A stretch of 64,000 nt of DNA, from assembly GCF_001753165.1 (NCBI RefSeq), contig NZ_CP017448.1:576462-640461 (forward strand), given 5' to 3'. Origin of the DNA: Acidihalobacter aeolianus. GTDB lineage: Bacteria; Pseudomonadota; Gammaproteobacteria; DSM-5130; Acidihalobacteraceae. The notes under the pieces were generated by a model that saw only the letters and a list, made by a program, of their open reading frames with translations, was not told the DNA's origin and did not search any database. The position numbers were made by a program, and so were the translations under genes. The stretch's first letter is position 1. The number at the start of each line of letters is the position of its first letter. Positions 1 to 16,409 of this stretch are shown one piece after another.

Positions 1-522
1 GCCGGTGCGGAAGGTGCCCTCGATCACCGCGGCGGCCTGGCGCTCGCCCTCGGCGAGGTCGCCCTTGGCCAGGGTGTAATCGGTGAAGACGTTGTCCGGC
101 ACGATGCGCCGCGACGAGACCAGTGCCTCGTCCACGTCGAACAGCGGTTCCGGTCCCGGCGTTTCGATCACTTCGATATGCGCCAGCGCCTCGGCCAGAC
201 GTGCGCGGTCGGGGTGGGCGATCAGCGCCACCGGCTCAGCGGCATGGCGGTATTCGCCGGCGGCGAGCACCGGCTGGTCTTCAGCGATGGCCTTGACGCA
301 GTTGGCGCCGGGAATGTCGGCGGCGGTCACGATCACGAATTCGGACCAGTCGCGGTCGGGATCGAGGCAGATGCCGCCCAGCGTGCCGCCCGGATGGCAG
401 GTGCGCAGGGTCGCGGCGTGGAGCATGTCCGGATAGACGATGTCGTCCACGTAGCGCGCGCGGCCGGCAAGCTTGTCGTCCGCATCCACGCGTATCGGGC
501 TGGTGCCGATGGTGTCGCTCAA
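1..522 (-). CDS. Xanthine dehydrogenase-like molybdopterin-binding subunit (N-terminal part, cut by window edge)
   Basis: The first 174 codons are visible; the rest lies beyond position 1. The translation opens LSDTIGTSPIRVDADDK and contains GRARYVDDIVYPDMLHAATL, which is the typical start of the aldehyde oxidase/xanthine dehydrogenase a/b-hammerhead domain of molybdenum hydroxylase large subunits. These enzymes hydroxylate purines such as hypoxanthine and xanthine with FAD and 2Fe-2S partners. I chose the TTG at 522-520 because AGGA and GGAG motifs lie just upstream and the conserved region starts right after it. The gene diverges from a purine-type ABC transporter operon, which supports a purine substrate. 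An aldehyde or isoquinoline substrate cannot be excluded because the catalytic domain is not visible. Confidence 0.8.
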   Translation of the reverse strand, partial: MSDTIGTSPIRVDADDKLAGRARYVDDIVYPDMLHAATLRTCHPGGTLGGICLDPDRDWSEFVIVTAADIPGANCVKAIAEDQPVLAAGEYRHAAEPVALIAHPDRARLAEALAHIEVIETPGPEPLFDVDEALVSSRRIVPDNVFTDYTLAKGDLAEGERQAAAVIEGTFRTG

Positions 523-564
523 AGTTCCTGGTCTCCTGGCAAGTGCGCCGCCGCGCTCAATCTC

Positions 565-582
565 ATGCAACGATGTATGCAA
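565..582. promoter_or_regulatory. Operator-like site 1 in the divergent purine promoter region
   Basis: The 18-bp sequence ATGCAACGATGTATGCAA has the form TGCA-N8-TGCA. It matches the site at 857-874 at 15 of 18 positions. It ends 43 nt upstream of the TTG start of the xanthine dehydrogenase-like gene. The TGTATGCA core resembles the half-sites of GntR/FadR-type regulators, but this assignment is inference and no such regulator is in the window. Confidence 0.5.
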
Positions 583-856
583 GCAGAATGCGTGCCAGTC
601 ATGGGCTATAGATCGATGCATGCAGAGCGTGGGCCAGACCGGGTTATGGCGTGGCGGGACTGCGGAGCGCGATTTCTTTGTGCCCCAATATAGTGCATGA
701 CCTGTTCCGCAGCACTCGGATCGAGCGTTGTGCAGGGGCTCGGGCCCGGTGTTGCGCGCCCCTGAAACGGTCCGAATCTTGCTCCAATCAGGCGCCGCCG
801 CGACCCTCGAAGCATCCCGTGCCGGTGCGGTCCTTGCTGGCATCAATCGTGAATAC

Positions 857-874
857 ATGCATCGTTGTATGCAT
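857..874. promoter_or_regulatory. Operator-like site 2 in the divergent purine promoter region
   Basis: The 18-bp sequence ATGCATCGTTGTATGCAT is a second copy of the motif at 565-582. It ends 29 nt before the ATG of the transporter ATPase gene, where a repressor would block transcription. A partial related sequence, ATGCATGCA, is at 616-624 between the two sites. One site beside each divergent gene suggests coordinated control of both transcription units. Confidence 0.5.
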
Positions 875-903
875 AAGTCGATGAGCAAAGTTTGCCTGAT
901 TGC

Positions 904-2475
904 ATGAATTCTGACACCTCCCAGAACGTGACCGCCGTGCAGCCGCCGCGCCTCGAACTCGTGGGGCTGACCAAGCGTTTTCCAGGCGTGCTCGCCAACG
1001 ACCGGGTCGACGTGAGCGTCCGCGCCGGCGAGATTCATGCCCTGCTGGGCGAGAACGGCGCCGGCAAGAGCACGCTGATGAAGATGATCTACGGCCTGCT
1101 CGCGCCCGACGAGGGTTCGATCCTGTGGGAAGGCCGCGAGACCGTGATCGATGGGCCGGTGCATGCGCGTCGCCTCGGCATGGGCATGGTGCAGCAACAT
1201 TTTTCCCTGCTCGAAAGCCTCACCGTGGCCGAGAATCTGGCGCTCACGCTGAACCGGCGCGGACGCTGGGAGCCCGCGCGCGTGGCCGCACGCGTGGCCG
1301 AGGCGGAAGGCCGCTACGGTCTGGCGGTCGAGCCGCGCCGGCCGGTGCACAGCCTGTCGGTCGGGCAGCGCCAGCGGGTCGAGATCCTGCGCTGCCTGCT
1401 GCAGGAGGAACCGCTCAAGCTGCTGATCCTCGACGAGCCGACCGCGGTGCTCACGCCGCAGGAAGTGGGCGGGCTGTTCGAGGTGCTGCGCCGGCTTGCC
1501 GCGCAGGGGCTGAGCATCCTGTTCGTCAGCCACAAGCTCGACGAGGTCAAGGCGCTGTGCGAGCGCGTCACCGTGCTGCGCGGCGGCAGGGTGGTCGCGC
1601 GCCGCGACATGGCGGACGTAACGGTGGACGAGCTGGCCACGCTGATGGTCGGCGACCGCCCGCCGGCCCTGCGCGCGCGTCGCGCGGTGGCCGGCGCCGG
1701 CGAGGTCCGCCTGGCGCTGCAGGGGCTCGATCTAGCGCCAGACCATCCGCACGGCACCGCGCTGAGTCGAGCCTCCCTGGAGCTCAGGCGCGGCGAGATC
1801 CTGGGGCTGGCCGGGGTTTCGGGCAACGGCCAGCAGGAACTGCTCGCCGCGCTGGTGGGCGAGCGTCCGGTGCCGGCCGACTGTGTGCTGATCGACGGCG
1901 AACCGGTGGGCCGGATGGGCGTGGCCGAACGCCGCCGGCGCGGACTGCGCTACGTGCCGGAGGATCGTCTGGGTACCGGCGCCGTGCCCAGCCTCTCTTT
2001 GATCGACAACGCCCTGCTCACGCGCTGGCCGAAGGCGACGCGCTTCGGCTGGGTGTCGCTGGCGGCGGCGTGGCACTGGGCGCAGGCGATCTGCGAACGC
2101 TATCAGGTGCGCCAGGCCGGCGTCGGCATGCCGGCGTCCTCGCTGTCGGGCGGCAACCTGCAGAAATTCATCGTCGGCCGCGAGCTGGACGAGACCCCGG
2201 AGATCTTCGTCGTCGTGCAGCCCACCTGGGGCGTCGACGTCGCTGCGGCGCGACGCATTCAGGACGCCCTGCTCGCACTGCGCGAGCAGGGTACGGCCCT
2301 GCTGGTGATCTCCGACGACCTCGACGAACTGCTCGCCCTGGCCGACCGCGTGGCAGTGATCAGCGGCGGACGGGTGTCGTCGGCGCGGCCGGTGGCCGAA
2401 GTCGGCCGCGCGCAGCTCGGTCAGCTGATGGGCGGTCGCGGCCTGGAAGCGGAGGTGCCCGATGCTGCGGCTTAG
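904..2475 (+). CDS. ABC transporter ATP-binding protein, two nucleotide-binding domains (BMP-type purine/nucleoside uptake)
   Basis: This 523-aa protein is the energising subunit of a sugar/nucleoside-type ABC importer with two fused ATPase domains. The first domain has Walker A GENGAGKST (about residues 49-57), a signature LSVGQRQRV and Walker B LLILDEPTAVL. The second domain has a degenerate P-loop region (GVSGNGQQE), an LSGGNLQKF signature and VVQPTWGVDV in place of Walker B. That asymmetry is usual for RbsA/YufO-like proteins. I took the ATG at 904; an in-frame TTG at 892 is possible, and neither has a strong ribosome-binding site. The two permeases overlap and follow directly, and a BMP-family binding protein closes the transporter. 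Confidence 0.9.
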   Translation: MNSDTSQNVTAVQPPRLELVGLTKRFPGVLANDRVDVSVRAGEIHALLGENGAGKSTLMKMIYGLLAPDEGSILWEGRETVIDGPVHARRLGMGMVQQHFSLLESLTVAENLALTLNRRGRWEPARVAARVAEAEGRYGLAVEPRRPVHSLSVGQRQRVEILRCLLQEEPLKLLILDEPTAVLTPQEVGGLFEVLRRLAAQGLSILFVSHKLDEVKALCERVTVLRGGRVVARRDMADVTVDELATLMVGDRPPALRARRAVAGAGEVRLALQGLDLAPDHPHGTALSRASLELRRGEILGLAGVSGNGQQELLAALVGERPVPADCVLIDGEPVGRMGVAERRRRGLRYVPEDRLGTGAVPSLSLIDNALLTRWPKATRFGWVSLAAAWHWAQAICERYQVRQAGVGMPASSLSGGNLQKFIVGRELDETPEIFVVVQPTWGVDVAAARRIQDALLALREQGTALLVISDDLDELLALADRVAVISGGRVSSARPVAEVGRAQLGQLMGGRGLEAEVPDAAA

Positions 2476-3523
2476 ACTGCAGGCGCGCGCGCGGCCTTCC
2501 ACCCGCATGCAGTTCGCCGCGCCACTGCTTGCGGTGGGCGGCACCGCACTGGTCGCCTTCGCGGTGCTCGCGGCCTCCGGACATCCCCCGCTCGGCGGTT
2601 TCTACGCACTGTTCCTGGCGCCCTTCGGCAGCGCGTCCGGCTGGTCCGACGTGCTGGTCAAGGCGGCGCCGCTCGCGCTCATCGGCGCGGGGCTGGTGGT
2701 CGCCTATCGCGCCCGGGTGTGGAACATCGGCGCGCAGGGGCAGTACGTGATCGGCGCGGTACTCGGCAGCTCGCTGATCGTGTATCACCCCGACGCCACC
2801 AGCGCCTGGCTGCTGCCGGCGATGGTGCTGCTCGGCGCCGTCGGCGGTGCCGCCTACGGCGCGATCCCGGCGCTGCTCAACACGCGCTTCAACGCCAACG
2901 AGATCCTTACCAGCCTGATGCTGGACTACGTGGCGCTGTACCTGCTGCGCTATCTCACCTTCGGTCCCTGGCGCGATCCGCACAGCTACGGTTTTCCCGG
3001 CTCGATCTCGTTTCCGGATGCGGCCAGCCTGCCGATCATCTGGCCGCAGACGCAGTTCGACCTCGGCGCGCTGTGCGCCTTCTTCGCCGCGCCGCTGGTG
3101 TGGCTGTTGCTGCGCGGGTCGCTGTTCGGTTTCCAGGTGCGCGTCTCGGCCAGCGCGCCGGCGGCGCGCTATGCGGGCTTCAGCCGCGGCCGCACGGTGT
3201 GGCAGGCCTTCCTGCTCAGCGGCGCCTGCGCGGGGCTGGCGGGCATCCTGCAGGTGGCCGGGCCGATCGACCAGCTGCGCCCGAACATCTACTCGGACAT
3301 CGGCTTCGCCGCGATCATCGTGGCCTACCTCGGCCAGCTCAATCCGCTCGGCGTGCTGCCGGCGGCGCTGCTGGTCGGCCTGTTCTACGTCGGCGCGGAC
3401 AACGCCCAGATCACCATGGGCCTGCCGGTGGCGCTAACCCAGCTGCTGCAGGGCGTGCTGCTGTTCACCCTGCTCGCGGCCAACGTGCTGGTGCGCTACC
3501 GGCTGCGGCGGGTGCCGGCATGA
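2462..3523 (+). CDS. ABC transporter permease, BPD_transp_2 family (first of two)
   Basis: This 353-aa polytopic membrane protein is a permease of the ribose/nucleoside import class (YufP-like). It has a hydrophobic N-terminal helix after a basic RLRLQARARPSTR segment. The family motifs NIGAQGQ (about residue 87) and FNANEILTSLM are present. The start overlaps the ATPase gene by 14 nt, so translation is probably coupled. Its partner permease begins at the ATGA overlap at its end. The two are expected to form a heterodimeric pore for the neighbouring ATPase. Confidence 0.9.
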   Translation: MLRLRLQARARPSTRMQFAAPLLAVGGTALVAFAVLAASGHPPLGGFYALFLAPFGSASGWSDVLVKAAPLALIGAGLVVAYRARVWNIGAQGQYVIGAVLGSSLIVYHPDATSAWLLPAMVLLGAVGGAAYGAIPALLNTRFNANEILTSLMLDYVALYLLRYLTFGPWRDPHSYGFPGSISFPDAASLPIIWPQTQFDLGALCAFFAAPLVWLLLRGSLFGFQVRVSASAPAARYAGFSRGRTVWQAFLLSGACAGLAGILQVAGPIDQLRPNIYSDIGFAAIIVAYLGQLNPLGVLPAALLVGLFYVGADNAQITMGLPVALTQLLQGVLLFTLLAANVLVRYRLRRVPA

Positions 3524-4446
3524 GCCTCGACCTGTGGACCTCGATCGGGGGCAGCGTGGTGGTGGCCGCCACCCCGCTGCTGCTGGCCTCGGCCGGCGAA
3601 CTGGTCACCGAGCGCGCGGGCCTGCTCAACCTCGGCGTCGAGGGCATGATGACGGTCGGCGCCGCGGCCGGCTTCATCGCCGCCTACCACACCGGCAGCT
3701 CGGTCGTCGGGTTGTTCGCCGGTGCCGCGGCGGGTCTGTTCTGTGCGCTGATCTACGCCTGGCTGACCGTGCAGCTCGCCGCCGATCAGGTGGCCACGGG
3801 GCTCGCGCTGACCATCTTCGGCCACGGCCTGAGCGCCTTCGTCGGCCAGCCTTACGCCGGCAAGTCGATCCATCCGCTCGGCGATGCGCCAGTGCCGCTG
3901 CTGCAGCACATACCCGTGCTCGGCCCGGTGCTGTTCCATCACAGCCTGCCAGTGTACTTCGCGATCCTGCTGGTGCTGGGGCTGGCCTGGTACCTGCGCG
4001 CGACGCGCGGCGGGCTGATGCTCAAGAGCGTGGGCGAGGACCCGCAGGTGGCGCGCGGTCTCGGTCTGCCGGTGATCGCGATCCGCTACGCCGCGGCGCT
4101 GTTCGGCGGCGCGATGGCGGGCCTCGGCGGCGCCTTCCTGTCCACGGTGTATACGCCGATGTGGGCGCAGGGCATGGTCGCGGGGCAAGGCTGGATCGCG
4201 GTCGGCCTGGTGGTGTTCGCCACCTGGCGTCCGCTGCGCCTGCTGCTCGGCGCCTGGCTGTTCGCCGGCGTCGGAATCGGCCAGCTGTTCTCACAGGCGG
4301 CGGGTCTGCAGGTGAACACGTATTTTCTGTCGGCATTGCCCTATCTGGCCGTGCTGACGGCGCTGGTTCTGATTTCGCGCGACCCGATGCGCATCCGGCT
4401 GCACACGCCGGCCGCGCTCGGGCGCCCGTTCAGGGCCGAGTCCTGA
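3520..4446 (+). CDS. ABC transporter permease, BPD_transp_2 family (second of two)
   Basis: This 308-aa membrane protein is the second permease of the importer (YufQ-like). It starts with the ATG of an ATGA overlap with the preceding stop codon. The motif LLNLGVEGMMTVGA near residue 38 is the hallmark of this half of BMP-type nucleoside transporters. Multiple hydrophobic helices cover the rest. It continues the same tightly packed operon and lies 71 nt upstream of the substrate-binding protein. Confidence 0.9.
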   Translation: MSLDLWTSIGGSVVVAATPLLLASAGELVTERAGLLNLGVEGMMTVGAAAGFIAAYHTGSSVVGLFAGAAAGLFCALIYAWLTVQLAADQVATGLALTIFGHGLSAFVGQPYAGKSIHPLGDAPVPLLQHIPVLGPVLFHHSLPVYFAILLVLGLAWYLRATRGGLMLKSVGEDPQVARGLGLPVIAIRYAAALFGGAMAGLGGAFLSTVYTPMWAQGMVAGQGWIAVGLVVFATWRPLRLLLGAWLFAGVGIGQLFSQAAGLQVNTYFLSALPYLAVLTALVLISRDPMRIRLHTPAALGRPFRAES

Positions 4447-4517
4447 AGGCGGCGGGGCGGGCTTGATGCTCCCGCGGTCGGGTTCGTTCGATCTTCACAC
4501 GCAAGGAGATGGCAAAG

Positions 4518-6666
<2,149 letters not shown>

Positions 6667-6677
6667 GGACTTCGACG

Positions 6678-8483
6678 ATGCGCAGGGATGCGGAAGTGGA
6701 CATGGCGGGGACGTTGAATCTCGCGCGCCTGCGCCGGCGCTACGCGGATGAGGACGCGACGCCCGAAGAGGTGCTGCGCGAGGTGCTGGGGCGCATCGAG
6801 GCGTGCACCGCGCAGCACGTCTGGGTGGACCTGCTGCCCCACGACGATCTGCTGCTGCGCGCCCGCGCGCTGGGTGCGATGGGCGCCGCGCAGCGCGCCG
6901 AACTGCCGCTCTTCGGCATCCCGTTCGCGGTCAAGGACAACATCGACGTCGCGAGTTATCCGACCACCGCCGGCTGCCCGGAATTCGCCTACACCGCCTC
7001 GCGCACGGCCACCGTGGTCGCGCGCCTGGAGGCGGCCGGCGCGATGCTGATCGGCAAGACCAACATGGACCAGTTCGCCACCGGCCTCGTCGGCACGCGC
7101 TCGCCCTACGGCGCCTGCGACAACGCCGTCGACCCGGCCTACGTTTCAGGCGGGTCGAGTTCCGGTTCGGCGGTCGCGGTGGCCTGCGATCTCGTCAGCT
7201 TCTCGCTCGGCACCGATACCGCCGGTTCCGGGCGCGTGCCGGCCGCGTGCAACGGCATCGTCGGTCTCAAGCCGACGCGCGGCCTGCTCAGCACCGCCGG
7301 CGTGGTGCCGGCCTGCCGCTCGCTGGACTGCGTGGCGATATTCGCCCAGTGCGTGGCCGATGCCGGCAACGTGCTGGAAATCGCCCTGGGGCCGGACCCG
7401 CGCGACCCGCTCAGCCGGGACGTGCCGCCGCTGCCGGTGCGCGCCGGCCTGCACGAGGGCGGTTTTTATTTCGGCGTGCCGGCCGTGGAGGCGCTGCGCT
7501 TCTACGGCGACGCCGAATCGCAGGCGCTGTTCGAGGCGGCCCTGCAGCGCCTGGAATCGATCGGCGGGCGCCGGGTGGAAATCGACTTCGCGCCGTTTCT
7601 GGAGGCCGGCAGCCTGCTATACGACGGCCCCTGGGTGGCCGAGCGGCTGGTCGCGGTCGGCCACTTCCTGATGCAGCAGCCGGAAGCCGTGCTGCCGCAT
7701 ACACGTGCGATCATCGAGGACGGCATGGCCTACGATGCCGCTGCCGTGTTCGGCGCGCAGTACCGCCTCGCCGCGCTGCGGCGCAAGGCCGAGGAGCAAA
7801 TGGCACGCGTCGACGTGCTGGTCACGCCGACCATCGGTACCCACGTCCGGCGCGAGGACGTCGAGATCGAACCGCTCGCCGCGAACCGCCGGCTGGGTTA
7901 CTACACACAGTTCGTGAATCTGCTGGACCAGTGTGCCATCGCCCTTCCGGCCGGCAAGCGCAGCGACGGCATGCCCTTCGGCATTTCCCTGATTGCGCCG
8001 CCGCTGGGCGATCGCGATCTGCTGACCCTGGCCCTGCGCTTTGCCGGCGAGGCGAGCGAGGGCGCGGTTGACGAGCCGGCCGACGACGATATTCAGCTGG
8101 CCGTGGTCGGCGCACACCTCAGCGGCCAGCCGCTGAACCACCAGCTGACCGTGCGCGGCGGACAGCTGATGCGCCGCTGCCGGACGGCGCACGCCTACCG
8201 GCTCTACGCCCTGCGCGGCACCACGCCGCGCAAGCCCGGCCTGGTGCGCAGCCTGCCTTCCGGTGCCGGCGACGCCATCGAGGTCGAGGTCTGGTCGCTG
8301 CCCACCGGCGAGTTCGGCGGCTTCCTGCGCGAAATTCCATCGCCGCTGTGCATCGGTTCCGTGGAGCTGGAAGACGGCGAATGGGTACAGGGCTTCCTGT
8401 GCGAGCCGCACGCCCTGGTCAACAGCGAAGACATCACCGCCCACGGCGGCTGGCGTGCGTATCTGAACGCAGTCGGAACCTGA
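6678..8483 (+). CDS. atzF: Allophanate hydrolase (amidase signature family with C-terminal AtzF-type domain)
   Basis: This 601-aa enzyme should hydrolyse allophanate to ammonia and CO2, the last step of urea use by the urea carboxylase route. The N-terminal amidase domain has the Ser-cisSer-Lys triad at K86, S160 and S184. The 74- and 24-residue spacings match, as I recall, those of Pseudomonas AtzF. The C-terminal part from about residue 470 (VGAHLSGQPLNHQL) fits the allophanate hydrolase C-terminal domain. ATG 6678 has a GAGG at a normal spacing; ATG 6702 is an alternative. No urea carboxylase is in the window, so the source of allophanate is unseen. Confidence 0.9.
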   Translation: MRRDAEVDMAGTLNLARLRRRYADEDATPEEVLREVLGRIEACTAQHVWVDLLPHDDLLLRARALGAMGAAQRAELPLFGIPFAVKDNIDVASYPTTAGCPEFAYTASRTATVVARLEAAGAMLIGKTNMDQFATGLVGTRSPYGACDNAVDPAYVSGGSSSGSAVAVACDLVSFSLGTDTAGSGRVPAACNGIVGLKPTRGLLSTAGVVPACRSLDCVAIFAQCVADAGNVLEIALGPDPRDPLSRDVPPLPVRAGLHEGGFYFGVPAVEALRFYGDAESQALFEAALQRLESIGGRRVEIDFAPFLEAGSLLYDGPWVAERLVAVGHFLMQQPEAVLPHTRAIIEDGMAYDAAAVFGAQYRLAALRRKAEEQMARVDVLVTPTIGTHVRREDVEIEPLAANRRLGYYTQFVNLLDQCAIALPAGKRSDGMPFGISLIAPPLGDRDLLTLALRFAGEASEGAVDEPADDDIQLAVVGAHLSGQPLNHQLTVRGGQLMRRCRTAHAYRLYALRGTTPRKPGLVRSLPSGAGDAIEVEVWSLPTGEFGGFLREIPSPLCIGSVELEDGEWVQGFLCEPHALVNSEDITAHGGWRAYLNAVGT

Positions 8484-8556
8484 GGCGACACCTCGTCGCC
8501 CTCAATCCCCTGGGTTGCGCTGTGCCTGAACGGTTCATCATCATCGGAGGCAGCAG

Positions 8557-9816
8557 ATGACGAGCAAAGCTAAACAGCGTGTTCGAGAACTGCGTATCGA
8601 CGAAACCCGGCTCTGGGATTCGCTGATGGAACTGGCCCGGATTGGCGCCACGCCCAAGGGCGGAGTCTGCCGGCAAGCCCTGACAGACCTCGACCGCCAG
8701 GGGCGGGATCTGGTCGTTCGATGGGCGCGCGAAGCCGGGCTGAGTGTGACCGTCGACAGGATCGGCAACGGTTTCTTGCGCAGGTCCGGGCTGGACGACA
8801 GCCTCCCGCCGATCGTTACCGGCAGTCACATCGACACCCAGCCCACCGGCGGCAAATTCGACGGTAACTATGGCGTGCTCGCCGGGCTCGAGGTGATGCG
8901 CACACTGAACGATCACGGCATCGTGACGCAGGCTCCGCTGGAAGTCGTCTGGTGGACCAACGAGGAGGGCTGTCGCTTTGTACCGGTCATGATGGGCTCC
9001 GGTGTTTTCACGGGAGCAGTCACGCTGGAGCACGCCTATGCGGCGACCGACGCAGAGGGCAAGCGGCTGGTCGACGAGCTGTCGCGCATCGGCTATCTCG
9101 GCGCACAGGAGCCAGGACATCATCCCATCGGTGCGTATTTCGAGGCGCATATCGAGCAGGGGCCGGTGCTCGAAGCGGAGGGCAAGACCATTGGTGCCGT
9201 GACCGGCGTTCTGGGCAGTCGGTGGTTCGACTGCACCGTGACCGGCATGGAGTCGCATGCCGGATCGACACCGATGTCGTCGCGCCGGGATGCGTTGCAG
9301 GTCGCCTCCGTCCTGATGCAGGAGGTGGCCGCCTGCGCGCATCGGCATGCGCCGGACGGTCGGGGTACGGTCGGCCGCGTTGAAGTGTTTCCCAACAGTC
9401 GCAACGTCATTCCCGGCAGAGTCAAATTTTCGATCGATCTGCGACATGGCGATGATGCGGGGTGTGCGGAGATGGTCGACGAAATCCGCGCCAAAGCCGC
9501 CGAGCTGATGGCGTCTACCGGCCTGGACATTCGTCTGGAAGAAGTGTCCGCCTACCCGGCTCAGGCCTTCTCTCCTCGCTGCGTGGATGCCATCACCCGC
9601 GCATCCGACGATCTGGCGTATGTAGCCATGCCCATCGTTTCGGGCGCTGGCCACGATGCGGTCCATGTTGCCCGGATTGCACCGACCGGGATGATCTTCG
9701 TGCCCTGTCGCGGCGGTATCAGTCACAACGAAATCGAACACGCGGAGCCGGCAGATCTTGCCGCCGGATGCAACGTGCTGCTGCAGGTGATGGCGGAGTT
9801 TGCCGATGTGGGCTGA
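8557..9816 (+). CDS. M20 family Zn-dependent hydrolase (allantoate amidohydrolase/N-carbamoyl amino acid hydrolase type)
   Basis: This 419-aa dinuclear zinc hydrolase belongs to the hydantoinase/carbamoylase amidase group. Metal-binding motifs are GSHIDTQPTGGKFDGNYG, NEEGCRF, AHIEQGPVLE and a C-terminal GGISHNEIEH. Members cleave allantoate, ureidoglycolate, beta-ureidopropionate or N-carbamoyl amino acids. In this context allantoate or another purine-derived ureide is most likely, but sequence alone does not fix the substrate. The start has a perfect GGAGG at 8546-8550. It is the last gene before the inserted IS element. Confidence 0.85.
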   Translation: MTSKAKQRVRELRIDETRLWDSLMELARIGATPKGGVCRQALTDLDRQGRDLVVRWAREAGLSVTVDRIGNGFLRRSGLDDSLPPIVTGSHIDTQPTGGKFDGNYGVLAGLEVMRTLNDHGIVTQAPLEVVWWTNEEGCRFVPVMMGSGVFTGAVTLEHAYAATDAEGKRLVDELSRIGYLGAQEPGHHPIGAYFEAHIEQGPVLEAEGKTIGAVTGVLGSRWFDCTVTGMESHAGSTPMSSRRDALQVASVLMQEVAACAHRHAPDGRGTVGRVEVFPNSRNVIPGRVKFSIDLRHGDDAGCAEMVDEIRAKAAELMASTGLDIRLEEVSAYPAQAFSPRCVDAITRASDDLAYVAMPIVSGAGHDAVHVARIAPTGMIFVPCRGGISHNEIEHAEPADLAAGCNVLLQVMAEFADVG

Positions 9817-9871
9817 GTTTTCGTGATCGAAATGAATCTATCCTTGTTCGTTGAGTTGGGATTATTTTGTA

Positions 9872-9902
9872 GGGGCTTCATCGGATAGGGTGGGTAACTC
9901 AG
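9872..9902 (+). repeat. Left terminal inverted repeat of the ISL3-type element
   Basis: This 31-bp end pairs with the right end at 11148-11178. Shared blocks are GG-GCTTC at the tip and TGGGTA-CT-AG at the inner side. The middle eleven bases diverge. Confidence 0.85.
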
Positions 9903-11136
9903 CGGCTGTCGAGGCCATTGGGGTAGAGGTCGATGCCACCGAGATGGAAGTAGATGGCGTTATGGAAACGGGCTCGATTGCGGAAGCCACAAGCGCGTTT
10001 CTTCAGGCGCTGGATGCGGCTGTTCATGCTCTCGGCATGGCCATTGTGGACCTTGAGCACCACGGCGTTGATGATGCCCCACAGATGTCTCTTGAGCGTG
10101 GCCGCGGCTTTTTTCATCGGCGCCAGACGACTGCGTACCGCCCAGGCCATCCAGCGCGCCCAGCCCTTGGCGGCCCAGGTGCGGCGGGTGTAGTGCCACA
10201 GGCCCATGGCGAACTCCTTGATCGCCCAGGCCCGGGCGGTCTTGAGCGTGCTCTCGCGCAGTGCCTGAAAGCGCCGGCGCTGCGCCCGGCTCATATTCGC
10301 CGGGTTGGTCAGCCACTGATACTTGCTGCCCTTGAGCGTTGTCTGCCCGGCACCCAGCAGCGCTCGATGCTCCTGGCGACGCACCCGGTCCACGGCCTCG
10401 CCCAGATACTTCGCGACATGAAATTTGTCGAACGCGATTTTCTCTCGCGCCCCTGGGATATGGGCCTCGGTCGCCGCGATGTAGGCCGGCCACATGTCCA
10501 TGGCCACCGCCTCGAGCCCGAGCTTATGGCTCTCGGGCAGGCTCTCGTAGTAGCCGGCCAGACTCTCGGTCCTGCGCTCATCGGCCACATGCACCACCAC
10601 GCCCCGGTCCTGGTCGCTGACGATCGCGACATACTCATGCCCGCGCTTGAAGGCGGTCTCATCGACGCTGATCGCCCGTGGCGGCTGCCCCTGGCGCCGC
10701 GCCAGACCTCGCTGCACGGCCCGGCGCATCACCGCGTCGATCGCGTTCCAGCTCAAGCGCAACTGCCGAGCCACCGCCTGGATGCTCGCCTCCTTAAGCC
10801 AATCGATGATCAGGGCCTCGAACAACGCCGTGAACCCCGAGCCCGGTTCCGCCCACGCTACCGCCACGGTCACCACCCCGTGTTCAGCGCACTTCACCCG
10901 CGGCACATTCTCTTCCAGTACCGTCTTGTACTGACAGGTGTCCAGGTGGCGCCAACGACGCCGGCGCTGTCATAACCAGGGCTGGGCTTGTCGCACTTCG
11001 GACAGCTCCAGCTCGTGCCGGGCTCTGGCGCGACCTGAACTCGAATCTCTTCGCTCGCCTGATCCACCGCCACCGACATCACCTGCCACGGCGAACTCAA
11101 CCCCAGAATCTGGGCGTAAAGATCAATGTCTCTCAT
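9899..11136 (-). pseudogene. ISL3-family transposase, frameshifted
   Basis: The N-terminal part starts at 11136 (MRDIDLYAQILGLSSPW) and includes a zinc-finger CPKC motif. It runs out of frame and stops at 10894. The remaining 335 codons, ending at 9899, carry the DDE transposase domain (AISVDETAFKRGHEY, AVAMDMWPAYI, FDKFHVAKYLGEAVD). Reading in the second frame upstream of 10906 gives RRWRHLDTCQYKT, the expected continuation, so one base is probably missing near 10958-10966. The two halves together have the normal length of about 410 aa. A sequencing error could mimic this. As read, the element cannot make a full transposase. Confidence 0.85.
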
Positions 11137-11147
11137 CGTTCAGAAAC

Positions 11148-11178
11148 CTAAGCTACCCACTCGATCAGGGGAAGCGCC
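11148..11178 (-). repeat. Right terminal inverted repeat of the ISL3-type element
   Basis: Read on the minus strand it begins GGCGCTTCCCC and ends GTGGGTAGCTTAG, mirroring the left end at 9872-9902. The duplicated target ATTTTGTA follows at 11179-11186. Confidence 0.85.
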
Positions 11179-11255
11179 ATTTTGTATAATAATTAAATTT
11201 AATTAATAAAGTTAATAATAATTTCTTTTTATTTAGTGTAGCAAGTAAAAATTTG

Positions 11256-11299
11256 GCACATTTGCTGTGCAATACATGCGTATGTGCACAACAATGTGC
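11256..11299. promoter_or_regulatory. Tandem GCACA/TGTGC dyads upstream of the NCS1 permease gene
   Basis: Two inverted repeats with the same arms are present. GCACA-N5-TGTGC is at 11256-11270 and GCACA-N4-TGTGC is at 11286-11299, with centres about three helical turns apart. They lie in an AT-rich stretch (11187-11340) upstream of the permease start at 11443. This is a plausible operator pair or activator site. The rest of the AT-rich segment shows no gene. Confidence 0.4.
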
Positions 11300-11442
11300 G
11301 CGAATTATTTCACGTTAGAAAATCAGGTTATTTAGGGTAATTCTTGAATTACATGGCTTTAACGCAATCATTTGATCCATTAATTGAATGGCATGCAATC
11401 TGCTTGGCGGGGTCGTCTGCACCAACCCTGGAGGGCAAAGAC

Positions 11443-13089
11443 ATGTCGTCTCAGAAAAGCTGGTTTGCACGCGTTACCGCACATGAAAAGGTCGAAGATT
11501 ATTCGTTGCGGTATGCACCGAAAACTTTCAGGAAATGGTCTCCTGCAATTGTCGCGTCAGCCGGACTTGGCGCATCGGCAGCCTTGTTTCCCTTCGCGAT
11601 CAGCGCCGTGCTGTCAAATCAGTTGGGCAGCGCGAATGCCCTGATCGGCAATCTGATCGCGGTGCTGTTCTGTGTGCTGACCGGAATTCCGATTGCCCGC
11701 GAAATCGCCAAAAACAATATCGACATGGATTTGCTCACGCGCGGCGCGGGATTCGGTTATCTGGGCTCGACCCTGACCTCATTGATCTACGCCACGTTCA
11801 CATTTATCTATTTCGCGTTCGAAGGCTCGATCATGGGGCAGGGCATTACGGGCACCTTCGGCGTTCCAATTGAAATTTCATATGTCATCGTCGCGCTGGT
11901 CATCATTCCGCTAGTGACGTTCGGGATGTCCTTTCTGGCCAAGTTCCAGGCCTGGACGTGGCCTTTGTGGGCAGCCCTGCTGGCCATGCCCATCGCTGCG
12001 GTAGCTGTGGTCGGCGACCACGGCGTTGGTTCATGGTTGAGCTACAAGGGCATGGGGGCAAGCGCCGGCGCCTCGACCCATCTGATCAGCAACGTATCGA
12101 TCGGGCTGGCTGCCGCGGCCCTGCTGTCTCTGCTGGCGCAGATCGGAGAACAGGCGGACTACGTACGCTTCATGCCCGACGAGGGGCGCGACAATGCGGC
12201 GGCGCACCGTTTCTGGACCTTCATGTCCGGTCCCGGCTGGGCCATCGTTTTTGCCGTCACGTACACGCTGGGTTCCTACGTGGCTTCCTACACTGCATCG
12301 CATATCGGCGCGAAAAGCAACGAGCCGTTCCAGAATTTCCTGTACGCCTACGACCTGTTCCTGCCGCACTGGCTGGGCACGACCTTCGCCTTCCTGCTGG
12401 TGGTGGTGGCGCAGGCGAAGATCAACGTCACGAACGCGTATTCAGGGTCACTGTCCTGGTCAAATTTCTTTTCGCGTGTGCTGCACAAGCATTACGGGCG
12501 CTTCACCTGGCTGCTGTTGCAGGTCTTGATCGGGCTGGCGCTCATGGAAGCGAACGTATTCAAGGAAATGGCCGCGCTGCTCGGTTTTTATTCGAACGTG
12601 GCTGTTTCGTGGATCGTCGCGGTATTTGCGGATTTAACGATCAATCGAAAAATGCTGGGTATCGGGCCGAGCTGGGTCGAATTCAAACGCGGACACCTGT
12701 ACAACTTCAACCCCGTCGGATTCGGCAGCATGCTGATCGCATCAGCCATTTCCATCGGCACCTATTTCGGCATGTTGGGCGCAGAACTCAAACCGTACGC
12801 TCCGTTTGTTGCGGCCCTGGTTTCGTTTATCTGCGTGCCTCTGATTGCTGTGCTGACGAAAGGAAAATATTACATCAAGCGCATGCCGTCAGACGGTCCG
12901 GTGTCGGCGCATGTTGCGCCCAAGCACGCGTGCGCCGTGTGCAGCGATCATTTCGAATCGCCCGACCTGCTGGATTGTCCGCATCACTCCGGAACCGTGT
13001 GTTCGCTCTGCTGTACGGTCGAGTCCGCCTGTCACGACATGTGCAAATCCATTCCCATCGTCGCGGCGCCGCTGACCGCAAAACCCTGA
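11443..13089 (+). CDS. NCS1-family nucleobase:cation symporter with C-terminal cysteine-rich domain
   Basis: This 548-aa membrane protein has the purine/cytosine permease fold, about twelve hydrophobic helices after YSLRYAPKTFRKWSP. NCS1 proteins import purines, pyrimidines, allantoin, hydantoins or thiamine with H+ or Na+. After the last helix (about residue 480) comes a soluble tail with eight cysteines at 497, 500, 512, 520, 523, 524, 530 and 534 (CAVC, CSLCC, CHDMC). This looks like a zinc- or redox-binding module and is absent from ordinary NCS1 carriers. The start at 11443 has GGAGGG seven bases upstream; the longer reading from 11344 lacks one. An amidase follows 73 nt downstream. Confidence 0.85.
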   Translation: MSSQKSWFARVTAHEKVEDYSLRYAPKTFRKWSPAIVASAGLGASAALFPFAISAVLSNQLGSANALIGNLIAVLFCVLTGIPIAREIAKNNIDMDLLTRGAGFGYLGSTLTSLIYATFTFIYFAFEGSIMGQGITGTFGVPIEISYVIVALVIIPLVTFGMSFLAKFQAWTWPLWAALLAMPIAAVAVVGDHGVGSWLSYKGMGASAGASTHLISNVSIGLAAAALLSLLAQIGEQADYVRFMPDEGRDNAAAHRFWTFMSGPGWAIVFAVTYTLGSYVASYTASHIGAKSNEPFQNFLYAYDLFLPHWLGTTFAFLLVVVAQAKINVTNAYSGSLSWSNFFSRVLHKHYGRFTWLLLQVLIGLALMEANVFKEMAALLGFYSNVAVSWIVAVFADLTINRKMLGIGPSWVEFKRGHLYNFNPVGFGSMLIASAISIGTYFGMLGAELKPYAPFVAALVSFICVPLIAVLTKGKYYIKRMPSDGPVSAHVAPKHACAVCSDHFESPDLLDCPHHSGTVCSLCCTVESACHDMCKSIPIVAAPLTAKP

Positions 13090-13162
13090 AAATTCCTGAA
13101 TGCACCGGGCCCCCCGGTCGCACCCGAAATTTTTTCACTGAAGGAAATTGGAGGACTGCAAG

Positions 13163-14662
13163 ATGGCGCTTACGCTACCCACGCTGGTCGAGCTCGATGA
13201 GATTTGCGACAAGCTGAGAATCAGTCTGTCGTCGGAAGATCTGATCGCATACCAGGGCATGATGCAGGGCTATGTCGATGCGTATAACACGGTCGATGCC
13301 ATTCCCGGAAAAAAACCCGAGACGTATTACCCGCGCGGGGGCTGGCACCGGCCCGCAGCGGAAGAAAACAAATTCAACGAATGGTATGTGCGCTGCGCCA
13401 TCGACGGCGAGGCGGACGGTCCGCTGAAGGGTTGGGATATTGCGGTCAAAGACAATGTGATGGTGGCCGGCATCCCGATGATGAACGGCGCGTCGACGAT
13501 GGAGGGCTATACGCCCAATGTTGACGCGACGGTCGTCACCCGCTTGCTGAAAAGCGGTGCGCGCGTGGTCGGCAAGGCCAACTGCGAATATTTCTGCCTG
13601 TCCGGTGGCAGCCATACCTGCGCGAACGGTCCGGTGCGCAATCCCATCAATCCGGAACGCATGGCGGGCGGTTCGTCGTCCGGCAGCGCGGTGGCCGTCG
13701 CCACGGGGGAATGCCGCGGTGCCCTGGGCGGCGATCAGGGCGGATCGATCCGCATGCCGGCCTCGTTCTGCGGCATCGTCGGCATGAAGCCCACGTTCGG
13801 CCTCGTGCCCTACACGGGGATCATGCCCATCGAGATCACCGTGGATCACGTCGGCCCGATGACGCGCACCGTGGCCGACAACGCGAAGATGCTCAAGGCC
13901 CTCGCCGGCAAGGACGGCTTCGACCCTCGGCAGGTGTATGCCGACGAGCAGGTGCAGGACTATGAGGCACTGCTCGACAAGGGCGTCGCCGGGCTTAGGA
14001 TCGGTATCCTGCAGGAAGGCTTCGGCTGGGCGGAGTCCGACCCGAAGGTCGATGCGAGGGTGATGGCCGTGGCTCGGAAGCTGGCGGAACTCGGCGCGGA
14101 GGTTTCCCAGGTCTCGGTCCCGCTGCACAAGCTCGGCTCAACCCTGTGGGCACCCGTCGGCATCCAGGGGCTGTACGCCACTATGTTGGTTGGCGACGGT
14201 TACGGCATCAGCCGCGAGGACTACTACGCGACCGATCTGATGAAATTCCACGCGCGCTGGCGAGATCAGGCGGACGAGATGTCGGCGACGACCAAGCTGC
14301 TGATGCTGTTCGGGGAGTATGTCAACGCGCGACACGGCAGCTACCACTACGGCAAGGCGATCAACGCGGTGAAGACCCTGCGCGCGGCTTACGACGAAGC
14401 GCTCACGCAGTTCGACATGCTGCTGATGCCGACCACGCCGATGACCGCAACCGAGTTCCCGGCCGACGACGATGTATCGCAGGTCAAGGGAGCCTTCGAG
14501 ATGCTGGCCAACACCAGCCCCTTCGACCTCACGCATCATCCCGCCATCGCCATGCCCTGTGGCGACGTAGACGGGCTGCCGGCCAGCGTCATGCTCGTTG
14601 GGCGTCATTTCGACGAGGCGCGGTTGTACCAGGCTGCCGCCGCGCTGGAGGCGAGTCTTTGA
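13163..14662 (+). CDS. Amidase signature family amidase (enantioselective amidase type)
   Basis: This 499-aa enzyme should hydrolyse a carboxamide or ureide to acid and ammonia. The catalytic Ser-cisSer-Lys triad is K96 (AVKDN), S171 (GGSSSGSAV) and S195 (GGDQGGSIRMP). The same residue numbers, as I recall, are catalytic in the nitrile-pathway amidases of Rhodococcus, which also have a similar helical N-terminal extension of about 90 residues. GGAGG at 13150-13154 selects ATG 13163. It sits directly after the NCS1 permease, so the transported compound may be its substrate. No nitrile hydratase is present. The natural substrate is unknown. Confidence 0.85.
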   Translation: MALTLPTLVELDEICDKLRISLSSEDLIAYQGMMQGYVDAYNTVDAIPGKKPETYYPRGGWHRPAAEENKFNEWYVRCAIDGEADGPLKGWDIAVKDNVMVAGIPMMNGASTMEGYTPNVDATVVTRLLKSGARVVGKANCEYFCLSGGSHTCANGPVRNPINPERMAGGSSSGSAVAVATGECRGALGGDQGGSIRMPASFCGIVGMKPTFGLVPYTGIMPIEITVDHVGPMTRTVADNAKMLKALAGKDGFDPRQVYADEQVQDYEALLDKGVAGLRIGILQEGFGWAESDPKVDARVMAVARKLAELGAEVSQVSVPLHKLGSTLWAPVGIQGLYATMLVGDGYGISREDYYATDLMKFHARWRDQADEMSATTKLLMLFGEYVNARHGSYHYGKAINAVKTLRAAYDEALTQFDMLLMPTTPMTATEFPADDDVSQVKGAFEMLANTSPFDLTHHPAIAMPCGDVDGLPASVMLVGRHFDEARLYQAAAALEASL

Positions 14663-14745
14663 GCTGATCTTAAGCGGCGCAACCTGATCCGGCGCATGCC
14701 GCGCCGGCCTACGCGGTTTAGAATGGCCCACGGGTGCCCTATGTG

Positions 14746-14776
14746 CCCCGGCATGTTTCGGCATGCCGGGGTTTTT
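14746..14776 (+). terminator. Rho-independent terminator after the amidase gene
   Basis: A perfect 10-bp stem CCCCGGCATG/CATGCCGGGG with a six-base loop is followed by TTTTT. It separates the permease-amidase operon from thiO. Confidence 0.85.
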
Positions 14777-14835
14777 CGTTTACCCGCCGGAATGCCGCGC
14801 CCCGTACCGGCCGGCGCAACAGACAGCGACAGTCA

Positions 14836-15921
14836 ATGGACGATTGCATCATCGTGGGCGGTGGCCTGATCGGCATGCTGACCGCCCGTGAACTCAGCGC
14901 CGAGGGTCTCGCGGTGCGCCTGATCGAGCGCGGCGAGCCGGGCCGCGAGGCCTCGTGGGCGGGCGGCGGGATTCTGTCTCCGCTGTATCCCTGGCGCTAC
15001 CCTGAGGCGGTGACGCACCTCGCGCGCTACGGCCAGGCCCGCTACGCCGCTCTGGCGCGGCGGCTGTGCGAGGACAGCGGCGTCGACCCCGAATGGGAGC
15101 CCAGCGGGCTGTTGATGACGGACAGCGACGAGCAGGCCGAGGCGCTCGCCTGGGCGGACGCACAGGGCGTCGAGATGGAATGGCTCGATGCCGAGGGCGT
15201 GCGTCGCTGCGAGCCGGCGCTGGCGCCCGCGACCGGCGGGTTGTGGATGCCCGGTATCGCGCAGATGCGCAACCCGCGCCTGGTCCGCGCCCTGCGCGAG
15301 GGCCTTGTTCCTGCCGGCATCGCGGTCGAGTCGAACAACCCTGTGCGCGCGCTGCGCGTGACGGCAGGCCGGATCGCCGGCGTGGACACGGAGCAGGGCC
15401 TGCGGCAGGCCGGGCAGGTGGTGATTGCCGGCGGCGCGTGGAGCGCCGGGCTGCTCGACGAGCTGGGCGGGGCGCCGCCGATCCGCCCGGTGCGCGGGCA
15501 AATGATCGTGTTTCGCGCCGAGCCGGGGCTGCTGCGGCGCATCGTCCTGCGCGGCGACCGCTACCTGATTCCCCGCCGCGACGGCCGAATCGTCGTCGGC
15601 AGCACGCTTGAGGAAGTCGGCTTCGACAAGGGTACGACGGACGCGGCGCTCGCCTCGCTGCGCGACGCCGCGCGCGGGCTGGTGCCCGCGCTGGCGGACG
15701 TGCCGGTGGAGCATCAGTGGTCCGGGCTGCGTCCCGGTTCGCCGGACGGCGTGCCCGTGGTCGCCGAGCACCCGCGCGCCAGCGGGCTGTTCGTGAATGC
15801 CGGGCATTACCGCAACGGCGTGGTGATCGGCCTTGGCTCGGTGCGGGTGCTAGTCGATCTGATGATGGGACGTACGCCGCTGATCCCCGCCGAAGCCTAC
15901 GCCTACCCCGCTGGGGCGTAA
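14836..15921 (+). CDS. thiO: Glycine oxidase / FAD-dependent amine oxidoreductase
   Basis: This 361-aa flavoprotein of the D-amino acid oxidase superfamily starts with an FAD-binding Rossmann motif IIVGGGLIGMLTA. It has the family's EASWAGGGILSPLYPW segment, a PVRGQMI motif, and the C-terminal NAGHYRNGVVIG. ThiO oxidises glycine to iminoglycine for thiazole synthesis in thiamine biosynthesis. There are no other thiamine genes beside it. The start codon has no strong ribosome-binding site, but upstream in-frame starts add only low-complexity residues. It could also oxidise another small amine. Confidence 0.85.
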   Translation: MDDCIIVGGGLIGMLTARELSAEGLAVRLIERGEPGREASWAGGGILSPLYPWRYPEAVTHLARYGQARYAALARRLCEDSGVDPEWEPSGLLMTDSDEQAEALAWADAQGVEMEWLDAEGVRRCEPALAPATGGLWMPGIAQMRNPRLVRALREGLVPAGIAVESNNPVRALRVTAGRIAGVDTEQGLRQAGQVVIAGGAWSAGLLDELGGAPPIRPVRGQMIVFRAEPGLLRRIVLRGDRYLIPRRDGRIVVGSTLEEVGFDKGTTDAALASLRDAARGLVPALADVPVEHQWSGLRPGSPDGVPVVAEHPRASGLFVNAGHYRNGVVIGLGSVRVLVDLMMGRTPLIPAEAYAYPAGA

Positions 15922-15939
15922 TGCGATTCGTTCCCGTTC

Positions 15940-15952
15940 TAGACCGCGTCTA
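15940..15952. promoter_or_regulatory. Short dyad in the promoter region of the Fur-like gene
   Basis: The sequence TAGAC-CGC-GTCTA is a perfect inverted repeat with a 3-bp spacer, followed by TAAATAT. It lies 23 nt before the start codon of a Fur-family regulator. An autoregulatory operator is possible but unproven. Confidence 0.3.
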
Positions 15953-15974
15953 AATATTGCGTTAGGATTGCAGT

Positions 15975-16409
15975 ATGACTTATTCCGCCCGCCAGCCCAT
16001 GACCGACCGCGCCGCCGTTATCGGCCTGCTGCGCGAACACGGCATCACGCCCACGCAGCAGCGTGTGGAGATCGGCTGCCTGCTGTTCGGCGCACATCAG
16101 CACGTGTCCGCCGATCAGGTCCTGGCGCGCTTGAGCGGCACCCGTCACGGCGTCTCCAAGGCCACGGTATACAACACCCTCGGCCTGTTCGCGGAGAAAG
16201 GACTGCTGCGCGAGGTCGTGGTCGACCCGAGCAAGATGTTCTTCGACACAAACCTGGACCCGCACCACCACCTCTACCACCTCGAATCGGGCGAACTGGA
16301 AGACATCGAGGCGGCGGACGTGACCATCAATCGCATGCCGGTCCTGCCCGAGGCGGTAGACGTGGCCGGGGTGGACGTGATCATCCGGGTCAAACCCAGC
16401 GCCCGTTGA
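15975..16409 (+). CDS. Fur-family transcriptional regulator
   Basis: This 144-aa protein has the Fur winged-helix domain (LREHGITPTQQRVEI, SKATVYNTLGLFAEKGLLREV). A metal/heme-type motif DPHHHLYHLESGEL follows at about residue 93. It lacks the CxxC structural zinc cysteines of classical Fur, so it resembles the Irr/PerR-like branch. It would control iron, heme or peroxide response genes. TAGGA at 15963-15967 supports ATG 15975. It stands alone downstream of thiO. Confidence 0.85.
   Translation: MTYSARQPMTDRAAVIGLLREHGITPTQQRVEIGCLLFGAHQHVSADQVLARLSGTRHGVSKATVYNTLGLFAEKGLLREVVVDPSKMFFDTNLDPHHHLYHLESGELEDIEAADVTINRMPVLPEAVDVAGVDVIIRVKPSAR

Follow-up and report, generated by a model that had tools for sequence, protein, structure and literature searches.

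The window analysed here, a stretch of 64,000 nucleotides from Acidihalobacter aeolianus, contains a gene for a predicted NCS1-fold carrier whose C-terminus bears a module of eight cysteines, together with several genes of amide and ureide metabolism (Table 1). A ggagg stretch precedes the ATG of the carrier gene at position 11443, and the in-frame TTG upstream at 11344 is a less probable start. The translation has cysteines at residues 77, 464, 497, 500, 512, 520, 523, 524, 530, and 534; eight of these ten fall within residues 497–534 in the arrangement listed in Table 1, which confirms the description in the earlier note. Position 12931 belongs to the codon of C497, and 13089 is the end of the stop codon.

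Table 1. Features in and around the carrier gene (positions in the window)
Feature	Position	Strand	Basis
Allophanate hydrolase	6330..8483	+	TIGR02713, 758.1 bits (cut-off 511); PF21986
Allantoate amidohydrolase / carbamoylase-family M20 hydrolase	8557..9816	+	Pfam, NCBIfam
ISL3-family transposase, just upstream of the carrier	9902..10906	-	
NCS1-fold carrier with C-terminal eight-cysteine module	11443..13089	+	548 aa, translation
Predicted membrane part, about residues 32–478, LeuT/NCS1 fold	11536..12876	+	AlphaFold2 model, block pLDDT mostly >90
Eight-cysteine module, residues 497–534	12931..13044	+	CxxC, lone C, CxxCC, C, C
Putative metal site 1: C497 (12931), C500 (12940), C520 (13000), C523 (13009)	12931..13011	+	Cysteine co-loss
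Putative metal site 2: C512 (12976), C524 (13012), C530 (13030), C534 (13042)	12976..13044	+	Cysteine co-loss
Amidase-signature enzyme	13163..14662	+	PF01425; NCBIfam NF005565, 701.7 bits (cut-off 545)

The AlphaFold2 model of the window carrier (77 sequences; mean pLDDT 89.9, pTM 0.91) finds its best solved matches in CodB (Z 35.6 over 397 residues, 3.3 Å) and Mhp1 (Z 30.4 over 436 residues, 3.8 Å), followed by other families with Z of 25.6 or less. The modelled fold is of the LeuT type and the NCS1 kind, closest to CodB and Mhp1. The window protein has no Pfam match at E 10, PF02133 included; this family is matched by a Klebsiella relative (L023) with 38.1 bits (cut-off 23.5).

The amidase gene starts 73 nt past the stop codon of the carrier gene on the same strand, and the two are likely to form one operon. 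Since its profile match begins at residue 128–163, the true start of the allophanate hydrolase is probably further in. Genes for an ABC transporter with a PnrA-like binding protein and for an adenosine deaminase also lie upstream. No kinase was found among the neighbouring frames (178–16406) run through Pfam, and two promoter-like sites were found near the carrier gene, against 1.8 expected from shuffles.

Besides the window gene, the host genome encodes two further members of the carrier family: a standalone paralogue with 52% identity and a fusion to a kinase with 46%. The latter two are divergent neighbours, with the fusion at 1.09 Mb of contig C1, about 0.5 Mb from the window copy, and the cluster of the paralogue includes a LuxR-type response regulator, a formamidase (FmdA equivalog, 798.6 bits, cut-off 500), and an aliphatic amidase (712.1 bits, cut-off 427). 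The host also has two canonical NCS1 carriers separate from the eight-cysteine family. Among the genomes of four family relatives of the host, two contain the carrier–kinase pair, a single one has just the fusion, and in another no member is present; no close orthologue of the window carrier was found in these four, and the window amidase has only 34–36% identical matches in three of them and none at E 1e-50 in the fourth. Local gain or loss is likely, and the ISL3 transposase together with the absence of the carrier from the relatives hints at a recent gain.

Occurrence of the eight-cysteine module

The probability of finding at least eight cysteines in 38 residues at a cysteine content of 1% is 3.7e-9, and this value together with the conservation of the module rules out a chance cluster. 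The tail pointed out in the earlier note is conserved in relatives: all eight cysteines are kept in 113 of 138 rows (75/75 fusion rows, among which the fusion of the host genome is entered twice, as L018 and L106, and 38/63 standalones), in a set where kin of the window are over-represented, since the named loci were chosen as the best 80 of at least 568 relatives matched to the window protein and include several near-copies (Bradyrhizobium). The rows comprise the window protein, 83 proteins from the named genome loci, 37 from other genomes, and 17 from plasmid records.

In contrast, the 18 canonical NCS1 frames that could be recognised, which come from 17 of the 20 control loci, contain 0–2 cysteines in their last 80 residues; the control loci are 20 of 23 matches in 12 genomes, several sharing one genome and all from the host's phylum, whereas the family loci come from several phyla, and in three control loci no NCS1 frame was recognised with two queries.

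Among 398 genomes of the phylum, 52 gave matches to a profile of the whole family, itself built with fusions included, at a minimum of 60 places (57 of the 60 in frames of 890 aa or more); with a profile of the module alone, these 52 genomes gave at least 59 matches, every one of them in the same frame as a carrier match; both counts are lower bounds, since only the first three and the first 14 candidates per genome, respectively, were scored. The search with the module alone, which the earlier note had proposed, finds it again on sensor kinases. On non-carrier proteins, no module was found at E 0.001 in the 398 genomes, with up to 14 candidates scored in each. The sole family-like place lacking the module in these genomes belongs to a distant standalone (G197:C40); in the fusion G393 the module at first appeared to be missing but lies after an insert.

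The window tail has no Pfam match at E 10 or 0.1. Among 42 family tails, single members touch four Pfam models, with a BCL-11A-like CCHC finger as the best (E 0.0039), and the FmdE treble-clef finger is touched by a tail at E 0.014. Matches of the tail to TRIM and Zif268-type PDB entries (E 0.08 or worse) are not significant, and an NCBIfam rad18 match (E 0.14) was dismissed.

Putative metal sites

Dereplication at 85% identity left 83 rows, 45 fusions and 38 standalones. The states of C500, C520, and C523 are concordant in 83/83 rows, with three changes each on the tree, as are those of C524, C530, and C534, with one change, while the two blocks are discordant with each other in 12 of the 83. 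The loss of cysteines in blocks suggests two four-cysteine sites, {497, 500, 520, 523} and {512, 524, 530, 534}, although the independent loss events are few, given three changes on the tree for site 1 and one for site 2. The assignments of C497 and C512 are weaker: C512 persists in nine rows despite the loss of its partners, and C497 persists in five of the seven rows of the 83-row set that are without site 1.

Read in the order 497, 500, 512, 520, 523, 524, 530, 534, the 25 incomplete rows show the patterns CCSCCK-- (7), CCCCC followed by L or V without further cysteines (9; the rows in which C512 persists), C[TS]SS[ASM]LGL (7), and DDCSTCCC (2). CCSCCK-- and DDCSTCCC are mirror images, and in the two DDCSTCCC rows site 1 is gone while all four cysteines of site 2 are kept. 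The DDCSTCCC form belongs to standalones of Nocardia and Mycobacterium (L046, L056) and is the reverse of the form found in Klebsiella, where the standalones L023 (7495–9099) and L085 keep only the first four-cysteine site.

Treble-clef fingers consist of a hairpin and then a helix with a cysteine pair at the helix start, and in two-metal fingers such as FYVE, RING, ZZ, and LIM, the ligands of the two sites are interleaved in order. In its tail, the AlphaFold2 model of the window carrier has a hairpin at 509–520 and a helix at 521–526 with C520 and C523 at its start, and the pair C497xxC500 lies ahead. The likeness to FYVE, RING, ZZ, and LIM is one of a hairpin and helix with cysteine pairs, but structural Z scores do not exceed 3.5 and no sequence match to these fingers is significant. 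The model of the tail alone has a modest pLDDT of 70.7; its weak structural matches are mainly metal-binding fingers (FYVE, RING, ZZ, PHD, LIM), with some ribosomal and other chains, and the FYVE domain 2yw8 matches with Z 3.1 over 41 residues at 1.9 Å. A Foldseek search with this model gave no match at E 0.001.

The blocks of cysteine loss and the predicted fold favour a two-metal, treble-clef-like finger, with zinc as the most likely metal, rather than a redox switch. The earlier note had left the choice between a zinc- and a redox-sensing module; it is the metal-binding half that is favoured here. A redox, NO, or thiol sensor, in which the eight cysteines switch between disulfide and thiol and so gate the carrier, would suit a cysteine-rich tail placed after the last membrane helix and the CxxCC motif, but it is rendered improbable by cysteine losses that come in metal-site-like blocks instead of pairwise, by the treble-clef-like predicted fold, and by the amide and urea genes in the neighbourhood. 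For a two-metal finger, the blocks in which cysteines are lost would predict which residues of this unnamed domain bind the metals.

The tail might also do no more than stabilise the structure of the carrier and regulate nothing, even where a kinase is fused to it. In several actinobacterial standalones one site or both are gone while the carrier domain persists, as such a role would allow, but 0/75 fusion rows have lost any of the eight cysteines, and we give this explanation a limited chance. Retention in 75/75 fusions suggests a stronger constraint where a kinase is attached, although it may also reflect history, since the fusions form one clade.

Substrate site and gene neighbours

The substrate site of CodB is described as including Trp108, Phe204, Ala207, Arg216, and Tyr285 (PMC9379551). 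When family positions were mapped onto the E. coli CodB sequence, the equivalent of Trp108 was position 123 (F, Y, or L; aromatic in 75/83 rows), that of Phe204 was position 230 (Leu in 79/83, Phe in three, Met in one), and that of Ala207 was position 233, which is Gln in 83/83. The Arg216/Tyr285 pair is kept as R242/Y333 in all 83 rows. Compared with CodB and Mhp1, with which it shares the LeuT-type fold, the family is therefore without half of the aromatic sandwich, has the invariant residues Q233 and K326, and carries the eight-cysteine tail in addition. Because the base-sandwiching aromatic pair is half lost, the family appears to be NCS1-fold kin rather than a nucleobase carrier, and small amides or urea would fit better than bases at a site where half of the ring-stacking pair is gone. 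The invariant Lys326 (83/83) lies in TM8 near the CodB sodium-site residues and may mean a different ion coupling; the alignment of TM8 to CodB at the Na2-site threonines is ambiguous by a three-residue gap, and for this reason a changed ion coupling is not claimed.

Among the members in the 80 named loci, some of which are cut by contig ends, genes for formamidase, aliphatic amidase, urease, or a urea ABC transporter were found within 8 kb of 25/33 fusions, 15/33 eight-cysteine standalones, and 6/17 standalones with fewer cysteines, and a regulator resembling that of the host genome stands beside 29/33 fusions within the same distance. Neither the marker genes nor the regulator were found at the canonical NCS1 controls (0/20 each, same phylum). 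The remaining 18 of the 33 eight-cysteine standalones are without a marker gene within 8 kb, some of them in loci cut by contig ends. Two standalones with no markers in reach or an amidase only (L053 and L034) have in common a biotin-dependent carboxylase, searched with Pfam in L034 only, which we take to be of the urea-carboxylase kind. For Streptomyces standalones without urea or amide neighbours, the neighbour clusters gave no clear pathway. The Klebsiella standalone L023, annotated as a cytosine permease, directly follows urease genes.

Urea, formamide, or a similar amide thus fits better than a nucleobase as the family substrate, judging from binding-site residues and neighbouring genes. 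The earlier note had called the protein a nucleobase transporter, a view that is not supported, given Leu at the Phe204 equivalent and neighbours that are often urea or amide genes. The NCS1 fold, the annotation of relatives as allantoin or cytosine permeases, the window's genes for an allantoate-type hydrolase and an adenosine deaminase, and the occurrence of a canonical NCS1 carrier beside allophanate-hydrolase-, M20-, and amidase-like genes similar to the window set (L160) would be consistent with a conventional permease for nucleobases or allantoin that has an uncommon tail. We nevertheless consider this reading unlikely in view of the residues at the Phe204 and Ala207 equivalents, the window protein's lack of any Pfam match, and the urea and amide neighbours across the family. 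MetT, a metformin transporter, is an NCS1 protein whose substrate is a small nitrogen compound without a ring (PMC13390362); the words cysteine and histidine kinase are absent from the main text of that paper.

The window carrier most probably imports an amide or ureide of its own cluster, probably the substrate of the adjoining amidase. Its substrate may differ from that of the family, since the window copy lies on a long branch (1.91 in a quick tree), breaks six of 84 nearly fixed columns, the most among the 83 dereplicated rows, and departs at positions 49, 225, 273, and 274 from residues common to 37/38 standalones. Two substitutions of the window protein, G270F and K273T, affect positions that are fixed in 82/82 other dereplicated rows.

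Kinase fusions and the role of the module

The 50 residues around the tail matched 516 plasmid records (best E about 1e-11), where some proteins are annotated as hybrid histidine kinases and many as ATP-binding protein, or carry no annotation. In annotated regions, a carrier domain of about 500 aa is followed by the module and then by kinase domains. Formamidase, urea ABC transporter, or urease genes adjoin the fusion in six annotated plasmid records, five of which also have a response regulator. A Pfam search of ten fusions found HATPase_c in 10/10, HisKA in 9/10, and a receiver domain in 5/10. The kinase part of the host genome's fusion is matched by 72/75 fusion rows at E 1e-5 or better, and two of the remaining three (L070 and L050) have kinase domains by Pfam, making a total of 74/75 with the exception of L059. 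Between the module and the kinase there are two hydrophobic segments in 40/45 fusions and three in 5/45, with the first 250 residues used for the 12/45 fusions where the H-box pattern was not seen. With two segments, neither the module nor the kinase would be across the membrane from the other, and we infer that this side is the cytoplasm and that the finger couples the carrier to the kinase. Eight loci (L016, L018, L019, L020, L025, L038, L073, and L084), from genomes G000, G001, and G002, Methylovirgula, Acidocella, and three Acinetobacter, contain a fusion and a standalone together.

On a quick tree of uncertain root, all 45 dereplicated fusions fall to the same side of a single branch (SH-aLRT 100). 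Position 334 is A in 45/45 fusions and S in 38/38 standalones, position 128 is A in 44/45 fusions and G in 38/38 standalones, and position 46 is S in 43/45 fusions and A in 37/38 standalones. In addition, Q133, S229, and N385 are fixed in 38/38 standalones, and G225 and Q274 are kept in 37/38, while all five vary in fusions. A relaxed transport constraint in the sensor forms is a suggestion and no proof, because the columns fixed in fusions but variable in standalones are more numerous than the reverse; such a longer list is expected when one clade is compared with a wider set. The direction of change would be from carrier to sensor. At positions 46, 128, 133, 229, 334, and 385, the window protein carries the residue typical of standalones.

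We consider the following explanation fairly probable. The protein encoded by the window gene would be an importer with the NCS1 fold that takes up a small amide or ureide, and its eight-cysteine module would form a small finger in the cytoplasm with two bound metal ions, most likely zinc, in interleaved Cys4 sites. Across the family, this module would serve as a fixed joint between the carrier fold and whatever lies downstream. In the one fused clade, it would lead through two or three hydrophobic segments to a histidine kinase, which in many members is accompanied by a receiver domain, and binding of a ligand in the carrier fold would be passed via the finger to the kinase and then to the response regulator. 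In standalone copies, the finger would cap the C-terminus, stabilising the inner gate or serving for docking. A role as a cap rather than in signalling is the more likely one for the window copy, and in the host genome the kinase-fused paralogue is the likelier sensor.

Alternatively, as the earlier note had suggested, the standalone window protein could itself be a transceptor; its finger would dock on a partner, such as the kinase-fused paralogue or some enzyme, and would report the flux of substrate. The same module joins carrier and kinase in the fused clade, and standalone and fused forms share a locus in the eight fetched loci named above; the window protein, however, has no kinase domain, lies about 0.5 Mb from the fusion with no kinase in the neighbouring frames run through Pfam, and has standalone-type residues, which makes this proposal rather unlikely. 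A broader hypothesis, which we put forward only tentatively, is that the fusions represent an undescribed and widespread transceptor class, an NCS1-derived urea or amide receptor linked to a kinase via a two-zinc finger. It would have arisen once from standalone carriers by core changes (positions 46, 128, and 334) that stopped or slowed transport, and standalones with an intact finger, including that of the window, would still talk to the kinase system.

Combinations of a carrier and a kinase are known from the SLC5–STAC histidine kinases CbrA, CrbS, and RpuS, where a carrier domain and a small joining domain precede the kinase (PMC13022988, PMC5715377, PMC9100948); in CbrA, STAC is thought to transmit carrier movements to the kinase (PMC13022988), and by analogy the finger is proposed to do the same. 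The fusions described here differ in being of the NCS1 type rather than SLC5 and in having two or three hydrophobic segments after the joint, and, in place of a four-helix STAC bundle, the predicted joint consists of cysteine-rich strands and one short helix. With such a joint and no kinase, the window protein falls outside the SLC5–STAC class. In the Amt-histidine kinase of Kuenenia, the fold of a nitrogen-compound carrier is likewise fused to a kinase (PMC5764959), but there it is an ammonium transporter and not an NCS1-type domain. Searches of open-access papers yielded SLC5–STAC and Amt kinases but no NCS1-type kinase or such a cysteine module among the matches listed.

Carrier-like sensor kinases are few in the literature surveyed, and mostly SLC5-based, while the different type of carrier kinase described here occurs in roughly an eighth of the genomes sampled from the phylum (at least 52/398). 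It comes with a likely ligand class, an adjoining regulator (29/33 fusions), standalone sisters in some of the same genomes, and few separating residues, so that the conversion of a transporter into a receptor can be tested directly. The presence of the same tail on carriers and on sensor kinases makes the family a good test case for this change.

The family also occurs in records labelled as phage or plasmid. Two records of more than 300 kb labelled as Acinetobacter phage (CAKLQH020000001.1 and CAKLQF020000001.1) hold the fusion, although their phage identity is doubtful. In the plasmid collection, 342 Klebsiella records hold a family match, and on plasmid 2 of Klebsiella pneumoniae INF323, an IncF plasmid, the fusion lies with urea ABC transporter and formamidase genes (L022, 4427–13899).
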